This document shows, in pieces, positions 9,565 to 44,793 of a stretch of 64,000 nt of DNA. The notes under the pieces were generated by a model. That model worked only from the letters and a program-made list of their open reading frames with translations. It did no database searches and was not told the origin of the DNA. The DNA is from Oscillospiraceae bacterium (GTDB lineage: Bacteria > Bacillota > Clostridia > Oscillospirales > Oscillospiraceae), in assembly GCA_017540645.1 (NCBI GenBank), contig JAFYAQ010000004.1, positions 62,001 through 126,000 of the forward strand. The letters run 5' to 3'. A program made the translations under genes and the position numbers. Each line of letters begins with the position of its first letter. Position 1 is the first letter of the stretch.

Positions 9565-9830
9565 GAAAAAGCGATGACGGAAAATCGTCTCCGCACCGGA
9601 AGGTACAGAGAACCGGCGGTTGGTGTGAGCCGGGCCTTTGGTGGGAGAACGTCTGGTTCCCGAGCAGGATCTGCCAAAGCCTCCGGCAAGTAGTGGATCA
9701 CGGGTGGTCCCGTTACAGGCCGAGGATCTGTTTGGATCTGACAGAGCCCGCGTTAAGCGGGGAATCAGGGTGGTACCACGATAGTTTACTGTTGTCCCTG
9801 AGGTCGTTCGACCTCAGGGATTTTTAATTT
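9565..9830 (+). promoter_or_regulatory. T-box riboswitch leader 1 (probable Leu or Val specifier)
   Basis: This is a tRNA-sensing leader. Stem I elements are visible: an AGAGA motif (9606-9611) followed by CCGGCGG, TTGGTGTGAGCCGG, and a helix formed by CTCC/CACC with GGTGGGAG. The antiterminator carries the T-box AGGGTGGTACCACG (9767-9780); its TGGT would pair with an NCCA end having discriminator A. A terminator follows. Aligning the end of Stem I with leader 2 puts the specifier at CTG (9653-9655, Leu); GTC (9651-9653, Val) is the main alternative. Ser (TCT) is unlikely because bacterial tRNA-Ser normally has discriminator G. Confidence 0.9.
9795..9825 (+). terminator. Conditional terminator of T-box leader 1
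   Basis: TCCCTGAGGT pairs with ACCTCAGGGA around a short CGTTCG tip, followed by TTTTT. It forms when uncharged tRNA does not stabilise the antiterminator. Confidence 0.88.
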
Positions 9831-13805: not shown

Positions 13806-13827
13806 TTGAGGCAATTCAAATAAACAA

Positions 13828-14078
13828 AGGCTTTGACGAAGACGGTCGAAGGAAAACGTCTGCAGAGAGCCGGCGGTTGATGCGAGCCGGTGACAATTTC
13901 TTTCAAAGACCCATCACTTCCGAGCCGGGGACCCGAGAGTCATTTGTAGGCATCCCCCGTCTGCCCGCGTTAAGGGACAGGGTCTGTTGGGACCTGGAGC
14001 GGCAGTCTTTGACTGCAATTTGAGTGGTACCGCGGGTTAATAAGCTCGCCTCAAGAAAACTTGAGGCGAGCTTTTTTG
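13828..14078 (+). promoter_or_regulatory. T-box riboswitch leader 2 (probable Ile specifier)
   Basis: Stem I carries GCAGAGAGCCGG and GGTTGATGCGAGCCGG (13862-13890). A GTCT/AGAC helix closes above the specifier loop, whose 3' side reads CCATCAC; the codon ATC (13913-13915) followed by A fits the usual specifier context, giving isoleucine. The antiterminator has GAGTGGTACCGCGG (14022-14035), whose TGGT matches tRNA with discriminator A, as in tRNA-Ile. A terminator follows. The leader would raise expression of the downstream ligase, oxidoreductase and ilvE genes when charged tRNA-Ile is scarce. Confidence 0.9.
14042..14077 (+). terminator. Conditional terminator of T-box leader 2
   Basis: A 14-bp perfect stem (AAGCTCGCCTCAAG with its complement) with an AAAA loop and a six-T tail, directly after the T-box sequence. 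Confidence 0.9.
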
Positions 14079-43577: not shown

Positions 43578-43730
43578 TGGTACGCCCGAGGGGACTCGAC
43601 CTGCGCTGCGGCGCAGGCCGCCTCGGGTTGCAAGGCGCCCCCGGCGCCTTGCCAAGTGCCCTCGGGTTCGAGTCCCCAACGATGGAATTCCAAATCAAAA
43701 AGCCAGTCCAAGAGGGCTGGCTTTCTGATT
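43578..43730 (-). repeat. Tandem tRNA-3'-end-linked repeat, copy 1 (153 bp)
   Basis: The unit begins (plus strand) with 22 bases identical to the 3' end of the tRNA-Leu gene (CCA end to T-loop), then a 7-bp hairpin (CCTGCGC/GCGCAGG), an 8-bp hairpin (AAGGCGCC/GGCGCCTT), a segment TCGAGTCCCC complementary to GGGGACTCGA at its start, and a terminator-like hairpin (about 43697-43726). The whole may fold into a branched structure. Copy 2 follows at 153 bp with about a dozen differences. Confidence 0.85.
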
Positions 43731-43884
43731 TGGTACGCCCGAGGGGACTCGACCTGCGCAGCGGCGCAGGCCACCTCGGGTTACAAGGCGCCCCCGGCGC
43801 CTTGCCAAGAGCCCTCGGGTTCGAGCCCCCAACGATGGAAATTCCAAATAAAAAAGCCAGTCCAGGAGGACTGGCTTTTTAATT
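43731..43884 (-). repeat. Tandem tRNA-3'-end-linked repeat, copy 2 (154 bp)
   Basis: It starts with the same 22-base tRNA 3' end (43731-43752) and has the same two hairpins, TCGAG-C-CCCC segment and closing hairpin. The real tRNA 3' end starts at 43885, exactly one unit later, so the three tRNA ends are evenly spaced. Confidence 0.85.
43851..43880 (-). terminator. Terminator of the tRNA-Leu gene
   Basis: AAAAAGCCAGTCC pairs with GGACTGGCTTTTT around AGGA; on the minus strand it lies five bases after the CCA end of the tRNA and ends in a T-run. It forms the last part of repeat copy 2. Confidence 0.85.
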
Positions 43885-43967
43885 TGGTACGCCCGAGGGG
43901 ACTCGAACCCCTACCCTCGCGGAATGGAACCTAAATCCATCGTGTATACCAATTTCACCACGGGCGC
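43885..43967 (-). tRNA. tRNA-Leu (anticodon TAG)
   Basis: The minus strand gives a 7-bp acceptor stem (GCGCCCG/CGGGCGT), a D-arm with GGTGAAATTGGTATACAC, an anticodon stem ATGGA/TCCAT with the loop TTTAGGT (anticodon TAG), an extended variable arm typical of class II tRNA, a T-arm with GGTTCGAGTCC and an encoded ACCA end (discriminator A). The anticodon and long variable arm identify leucine. A promoter (TTGACA-17-TAGTAT) lies upstream and a terminator follows directly. Confidence 0.96.
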
Positions 43968-44055: not shown

Positions 44056-44088
44056 GGGAAAAATTTCTTGCGGAAGGGAAAGAGGTCT

Positions 44089-44793
44089 ATGATCGCGGCG
44101 ATAGTGAATACGATCACAGTGCTGATCGGCAGCTCCCTGGGCCTGCTGCTCCGCAGCCGCTTTCGGGAGAGCCTCCAGGACGCGGTGATGAAGGCTCTGG
44201 CCCTCTGCACGGTCCTCATCGGGATGAGCAGCGCGCTGAAAACGGAGGATACCCTCTGCGTCATCCTCTGCATGGCCCTGGGGACCATTTTGGGAGAAGC
44301 GATTCGGATCGAGGACGGCATCAACTCTCTGGGGGACCGGCTGAAACGGCGCTTTGCCGTAGGCGGGGGAGACCGCTTCACCGAGGGTTTTGTCACCGCC
44401 TGTATCCTCTTTTGCATCGGCTCCATGACCATCATCGGCTGTCTGGAGGCGGGCCTGCAGGGCGATTACAGCACTCTCTTTGCCAAAAGTACCCTGGACC
44501 TTTTTTCCTCCTTTGCCCTGGCCTCGGCCATGGGCGTGGGCGTGGTGTTTTCCGCGGCCTTCGTGCTGGTATTCCAGGGGGGACTGATCCTTCTGGCTGG
44601 CTGGATCGGTCCGGTGCTCAGCGCCGTGGTGGTCACGGAGATGTCCGCCGTGGGCGGTGTGATCCTGCTGGGATTGGGGGTCAATCTGATGGGTCTGGGA
44701 GCGAAGCCCATCCGCGTGGCCAATATGCTCCCGGCCATTTTCCTTCCGGTGGCGTATCTGCCCCTGGCGGAGCTGCTGACAAAACTGTTTTGA
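44089..44793 (+). CDS. DUF554 family membrane protein (YqgA-like)
   Basis: The 234-residue protein has about six hydrophobic segments with no signal peptide, for example IAAIVNTITVLIGSSLGLLL at the start, which is the DUF554 signature (GxxLGxxL), LGTILGEAIRIEDGI and FVTACILFCIGSMTIIGCLEAG. The family is widespread, of unknown function and probably a transporter. ATG 44089 matches the family start; an in-frame start at 44068 would only add a charged leader. A strong bidirectional terminator follows the stop. Confidence 0.88.
   Translation: MIAAIVNTITVLIGSSLGLLLRSRFRESLQDAVMKALALCTVLIGMSSALKTEDTLCVILCMALGTILGEAIRIEDGINSLGDRLKRRFAVGGGDRFTEGFVTACILFCIGSMTIIGCLEAGLQGDYSTLFAKSTLDLFSSFALASAMGVGVVFSAAFVLVFQGGLILLAGWIGPVLSAVVVTEMSAVGGVILLGLGVNLMGLGAKPIRVANMLPAIFLPVAYLPLAELLTKLF

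Follow-up and report, generated by a model that had tools for sequence, protein, structure and literature searches.

A two-copy array of a short non-coding repeat lies directly behind the gene for tRNA-Leu(TAG) in a 64,000-nucleotide stretch of DNA from an Oscillospiraceae gut bacterium, which was analysed as a whole and is called the window below. With a probability of about 0.6, the array is a non-autonomous element of the RtT kind that resides at tRNA 3' ends and whose cores spread as DNA. The anatomy of the element, its recurrence, its adaptation to the host gene, the exchange of cores between tRNAs and the parallel with RtT are established. RtT repeats, a curiosity of the Escherichia coli tyrT operon, have been on record since the 1970s-1990s, and their design is not new; what is new is an RtT-type repeat with another core in Oscillospirales. 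The element begins with a terminator hairpin, continues with a complement of the T-stem and a palindromic three-way-junction core, and closes with a repeat of the host 3' end (T55 to CCA). It follows the CCA of its host, a tRNA or tmRNA gene that stays intact, and precedes the sequence downstream of it.

The array behind tRNA-Leu(TAG)

The host is an intact tRNA-Leu(TAG) gene on the minus strand at 43885..43967 (ARAGORN; Rfam tRNA model, 55.5 bits), with T55-A76 at 43885-43906. On its 3' side, and on the same strand, the gene is followed by two units in tandem, each about 153 bp long. The initial annotation had described tandem units of 153-154 bp that each carry the tRNA-Leu 3' end, and this was confirmed: the 22-base 3' end occurs in exact copies at 43578, 43731 and 43885 (TGGTACGCCCGAGGGGACTCGA, the reverse complement of T55-A76), Tandem Repeats Finder gave a period of 153 with 2.2 copies and 93% matches, and a repeat search of the window gave spacings of 153 and 154 between the copies. 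As had been claimed for the units, the array contains terminator hairpins, a pair of GC-rich hairpins per unit and the outer pairing segments GGGGACTCGA/TCGAGTCCCC. On the tRNA strand, 5' to 3', a unit runs from the CCA through the terminator hairpin, a spacer, GGGG(A/G)CTCGA and the core to TCGAGTCCCC-TCGGGCG-TACCA, and the core of each unit holds the two GC-rich hairpins. The units also encode no protein, as had been stated; at about 150 bp they have no room for a gene.

The terminator hairpin of unit 1 lies at 43844..43887 and is an inverted repeat of 95% complementarity, the stem of which takes in the CCA and is flanked by an A-tract and a T-tract. The 5' strand of the closing helix P1 (GGGGGCTCGA, 43821..43830) is the complement of the T-stem 3' strand, as seen in the repeat search and the alignment. 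The P1-P2-P2b-P3 three-way-junction domain spans 43740..43833 and scored 103.3 bits with a covariance model, R1, that was built from 11 units of the source genome. Within this domain, hairpin P2b with the loop GGG lies at 43784..43805 (inverted repeat and alignment) and hairpin P3, CCTGCGC-CGCT-GCGCAGG, at 43753..43770 (sequence and alignment). The unit ends in an exact copy of tRNA-Leu T55-A76 at 43731..43752, the first 10 nt of which form the 3' strand of P1. Unit 2, on the same strand, has its terminator hairpin at 43690..43733 (inverted repeat and fold), the P1 5' strand GGGGACTCGA at 43668..43677 (sequence, repeat search and alignment), the P1-P2-P2b-P3 domain at 43587..43680 (R1, 106.0 bits), P2b at 43630..43651 (inverted repeat), P3 with the loop CGCA at 43600..43617 (sequence and alignment) and a tail, again an exact copy of the tRNA-Leu 3' end, at 43578..43599, with no terminator beyond its CCA. 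A gene for a DUF554 membrane protein (44068-44793) adjoins the tRNA gene on the opposite strand, and the window also contains two T-box leaders (Rfam RF00230) on the plus strand at 9565-9802 and 13824-14056.

Recurrence and distribution

Fourteen matches to R1 were obtained in the 2.34-Mb source genome, behind eight tRNA genes and tmRNA. The hosts are Leu-TAG (two units), Gln-CTG, Arg-ACG, Arg-CCG, Lys-TTT, Ser-CGA, Ser-GGA, Pro-TGG (two units) and tmRNA; a unit with an Ala-CGC tail sits 3.8 kb downstream of tRNA-Ala-CGC, and three further units are degenerate, truncated or displaced. These units normally bear the 3' end of their own neighbour together with a T-stem complement fitted to that neighbour. 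The search of the genome and its relatives that had been proposed at the outset thus found the unit next to tmRNA and many different tRNA genes, and in each case with the 3' end of the gene concerned, so that the tRNA-linked units are neither confined to the window nor unrelated to tRNAs in their position.

Within the order, R1 matched 18 of 60 relatives, and among 398 genomes of the phylum it gave, beyond the source genome, two weak cases; the element is typical of Oscillospirales. A pattern scan of GTDB genomes returned at least 117 stretches, and those that could be named come from Oscillospiraceae and other Clostridia MAGs, many of them ruminant-derived. A match in Vibrio from the same scan was taken as chance. 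The stretches are of two kinds, one linked to tRNA or tmRNA genes and the other made up of dispersed intergenic repeats with the same core. A MITE roughly 300 bp in length also contains the R1 core; its inverted ends are long (AAATTCCGATTTATCG..), and it occurs in several copies in the Clostridia MAG SIG473 (L179, L189, L214, L244). No Rfam family matched the window unit or the loci with dispersed repeats in an Rfam search, and the literature searched, which lay largely outside subscription journals, held no specific account of tRNA-3'-end repeats in Clostridia.

Tails matched to the host gene

Host specificity was assessed in the 68 units that lie no more than 450 bp downstream of a tRNA or tmRNA gene. 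The tail was identical to the 3' end of the neighbour at 20 or more of 22 positions in 44 units, a level reached in 0.85% of comparisons with the ends of other genes. When the last 13 nt were considered, at least 12 matched in 48 of the 68 units (control, 0.6%). The acceptor part of the tail was gone in nine units, six of which have kept a complete P1 7-mer, and this retention suggests some selection on P1.

Fold and covariation

The three-way junction is composed of P1 (T-stem complement and tail), P2, P2b and P3. P2 contains a tandem GA pair, in place of which the Arg-CCG unit has Watson-Crick pairs, and the loops are GG(G/T) in P2b and mostly CGCA in P3. Two subfamilies are set apart by the internal loop between P2 and P2b. 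Of the paired cells of the alignment 97.9% are indeed paired and 13 of 31 pairs show double changes, a result equalled by none of 500 shuffles, and slid versions of the alignment pair at just 35-49%. P1 pairing spans tRNA positions 57-63 with 93-98% Watson-Crick pairs, except for 87% at position 60; it falls to about half at positions 64-65 and to background in the acceptor. The branched fold put forward earlier is thereby borne out, and the array is far beyond chance, the same fold being present behind other tRNAs with compensatory changes.

Such covariation is also what speaks for a functional trailer RNA similar to the RtT small RNA. The RNA would be read past the terminator from the tRNA promoter, would fold into the three-way junction closed by P1, would be released at the CCA by tRNA 3' processing and would act in trans or on tRNA maturation. 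The conserved internal loops AGTGAATG/CAGAG and CTTGG/CAACC and the retention of P1 in units without an acceptor tail point the same way. According to the passage in PMC4986893 that cites Bosl and Kersten (1991), RtT is released or processed from the tyrT transcript, a precedent that favours an RNA role and counts against a reading as a DNA element. Taken as a whole, this explanation is possible and rather unlikely.

The stems of the tRNAs at the studied loci contain 143 GT and 16 AC combinations. The units' own terminator hairpins, with 36 GT and 6 AC in 745 cells, and the terminators of tRNAs without units, with 31 GT and 5 AC, show this normal RNA pattern, and this GT excess, which selection on the transcribed strand is expected to leave, indicates that the terminator functions as RNA on the strand of the tRNA. 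By contrast, the helices of the core in tRNA-linked units gave 3 GT against 10 AC (Fisher p = 2e-7 versus tRNA stems), the counts for P2 and P3 being noisy from misalignment. The cleanest helix is P2b, which across all units has 5 GT and 3 AC in 1179 cells despite 44 distinct arms. P1 leans towards GT, a point against the DNA reading, with 18 GT and 9 AC (p = 0.12), or 18 to 5 when counted on the covariance-model alignment. The near-absence of wobble pairs from the core argues for DNA palindromes that are copied or kept rather than for a selected trailer RNA, and we infer that the core arms have been rewritten or kept in that form. An RNA may still be made from the opposite strand by the tRNA-linked subset. 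The trailer RNA also has to contend with the position of the unit behind an intrinsic terminator and with core types that are independent of the tRNA. Of the branched RNA read after the tRNA that the initial annotation had offered as an alternative, the branched fold with its covariation has held, and the RNA part has been weakened because the wobble signature is present in the terminator hairpin only.

Exchange of cores and probable spread of the element

Within the genus, core identity was 0.70 between units at the same tRNA (24 pairs) and 0.69 between units at different tRNAs (493 pairs). Core identity is therefore independent of the tRNA, and cores move between tRNA genes. For 15 of 63 cores the nearest neighbour was a core of the same genome, as compared with 6.9 after shuffling and a maximum of 15 in 300 shuffles. 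With its core decoupled from the tRNA, the unit behaves as the non-autonomous element that had been suspected, and it seems to pass from one tRNA gene to another. In one relative (G004) the Ser-GGA and Ala-CGC units (L107/L103) are nearly identical including the terminator, and the tail of the Ala unit is Ser-like, not that of its own neighbour; this reflects either recombination between the units or an assembly error or chimera of the MAG.

On the reading as a DNA element, cores would spread within genomes as palindromes, through a recombinase supplied in trans or through template switching at hairpins. The 22-nt tail would be the duplication that insertion leaves on the T-loop side, later shifts in copy number would come from unequal exchange between tandem units, and the element's own terminator would maintain a proper ending of tRNA transcription. 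The tail duplication could equally stem from tandem duplication or template switching as from recombination at an att site, and no clean pair of occupied and empty sites was found in Oscillospirales. The recombinase that the initial annotation had suggested looking for was not encountered among the Y1 transposase and RVT_1 families, neither of which tracks the units. Mobilisation by RAYT/Y1 or by reverse transcriptase (RVT_1) was rejected, since both families show no association with the units and are absent from unit-bearing genomes; PF01797 was not found in G003, G006, G008, G050 and G054, which carry units and whose assemblies are partly incomplete.

A tail that starts in the T-loop, a classic sublocation of integration in tRNA genes (Williams 2002, as cited in PMC9897764), also fits scars of larger integrase-borne islands, in which the tRNA would be attL, the tail attR and the interior deleted. 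DNA is indeed found between the tRNA and the unit at Ala-CGC of the source genome (3.8 kb) and at tRNA-Met in L077 (1.1 kb), and two units whose tail is tmRNA-like adjoin the end of a phage contig (L296). The interior of the units is, however, constant at 115-130 bp with a conserved terminator, P1 and core, unlike random remnants of deletion; no ORF or integrase fits inside, and phage and plasmid collections held no match to the unit. Such scars are accordingly an improbable source of the array. The R1 core was met in nine viral-contig stretches, one of them beside a tmRNA-like tail. At L296 (11850-12175) the end of the contig, on which tape measure, tail and lysis-type ORFs are present, is bordered by two R1 units in tandem whose tmRNA-like tail ends in CACTCA; this is a prophage at ssrA next to units.

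Unrelated cores in the same place

Relatives of the source organism have cores unrelated to R1 behind tRNA-Ala (L163), Gln (L144), Thr (L152), Pro (L096, L112), Val (L160) and Met (L077). These are likewise flanked by a complement of the tRNA before and a tRNA tail after, which shows that the arrangement is more general than the R1 core. The same P1-plus-tail logic around unrelated cores (L096, L112, L144, L152, L160, L163), together with inner helices that are near-perfect palindromes, would be expected if mutation were the sole agent, strand switching at the terminator and T-arm hairpins (tandem inversion duplication) remaking the T-arm copies and tails with no element involved. The inverted copy is nevertheless limited to the T-stem. 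A direct-inverted-direct triplication of the tRNA 3' end was rejected, as the spacer agrees with the acceptor complement at 5.79 of 12 positions and the control at 5.81 of 12. The R1 core is moreover conserved across many genera and in dispersed repeats, and an origin by mutation only is unlikely.

At L077 (370-1600), tRNA-Met is followed by a unit with another core, a 213-aa ORF and an R1-type unit with a tRNA-Met tail, so that two unrelated units and a gene insertion are seen at one tRNA. The antisense part of the other-core unit extends to the anticodon arm.

Comparison with RtT repeats, genomic islands and REP/MITE sequences

RtT repeats and the Oscillospirales units share their design, a resemblance that the initial annotation did not mention. 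Both adjoin a tRNA gene on its 3' side, in many cases as tandem copies, and end in a copy of the host 3' end including CCA. Both have a closing helix formed by the T-stem strand of the tail and its complement inside the repeat, and both occur with a matching tail behind several tRNAs and tmRNA (Tyr, Pro, Gln, Ser and tmRNA for RtT, with host-specific tails of 18-19 nt). The RtT repeats of tyrTV in E. coli K-12 scored 133-138 bits with RF00391 and end in 19 nt of tRNA-Tyr, GGGGAAGGAT inside the repeat being complementary to ATCCTTCCCC. At proK the RtT units have the tail of tRNA-Pro, GAGGAT is the complement of ATCCTC, and each CCA is followed by a terminator; E. coli strains have zero, one or two full 168-bp units at this gene with the last unit truncated. 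Tandem arrays at the Oscillospirales loci L004 and L029 likewise end in a truncated unit. RtT matches were obtained in 50 of 274 gammaproteobacterial genomes. At 21 tRNA or tmRNA loci (Gln, Tyr, Ser, tmRNA) the tail comprises 15-19 nt of the host RNA and the complement is adapted at most of these loci, with no exact complement at four of the 21.

The same search with RF00391 found no match in the window units. The RtT core has the motifs GATGAGAACC..GGTTCGAC..GAGTAATCC and several hairpins, and these motifs were not met in the alignment of Oscillospirales units, whereas the Oscillospirales core is a three-way junction with the loops GG-K-AGTGAATG../..CAGAGCC or GGC-N-CTTGG../..CAACC. The window units are thus RtT-like and not RtT. 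The tail starts at T55 (22 nt) in the Oscillospirales units and at A58 (19 nt) in RtT, and the two belong to different phyla. Another Oscillospirales unit, L163, has GGATGAGAAG in common with RtT.

Genomic islands that are targeted to tRNA or tmRNA genes by a tyrosine integrase also duplicate the tRNA 3' end from the T-loop and leave the host tRNA whole. The Oscillospirales unit differs in its lack of an integrase, its size of about 150 bp and its palindromic interior with a T-stem complement. REP and MITE sequences are, like the units, short non-coding palindromes in multiple copies, and the R1 core is likewise present among dispersed intergenic repeats and within the MITE described above. 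The tRNA-linked units differ from them in the host-specific tail and P1, and no RAYT (Y1_Tnp) is needed.

That the same host-adapted design stands behind many tRNAs and tmRNA in an unrelated phylum, around cores that are unrelated and interchangeable, suggests that tRNA-end elements form a general class which has been neglected. This finding means that tRNA 3' ends can house very small non-autonomous elements, and the origin and spread of RtT-type repeats become directly testable by strain comparison. A bolder and quite unlikely proposal is that RtT and the Oscillospirales units are two of several independent lineages within one wide class of non-coding elements parasitic on tRNAs, the 5' strand of P1 serving as an insertion guide. 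As single-stranded DNA or RNA, the exchangeable T-stem complement would pair with its counterpart strand in the T-stem of a tRNA or tmRNA gene. This pairing would direct insertion at the gene and the copying of its 3' end.

Two other structured sequences were observed in the source genome. At L041 (C1:15800-17000) a single-copy structured sequence, GGGGACGTTTGCGAG..CAGCGGTCGAAATC, lies between tRNA-Ser(GCT) and tRNA-Ser(TGA). Part of the 5' end of tRNA-Ser(TGA) is copied ahead of this sequence, which has a relative in L077. At L044 (C10:40500-41500) a row of hairpins of the form AAAG..ACAGCAA...CTTG, two of them with tRNA-like modules, is found upstream of a protein with a weak match to DUF2828, and this row looks like an array of Y-RNA-like genes.
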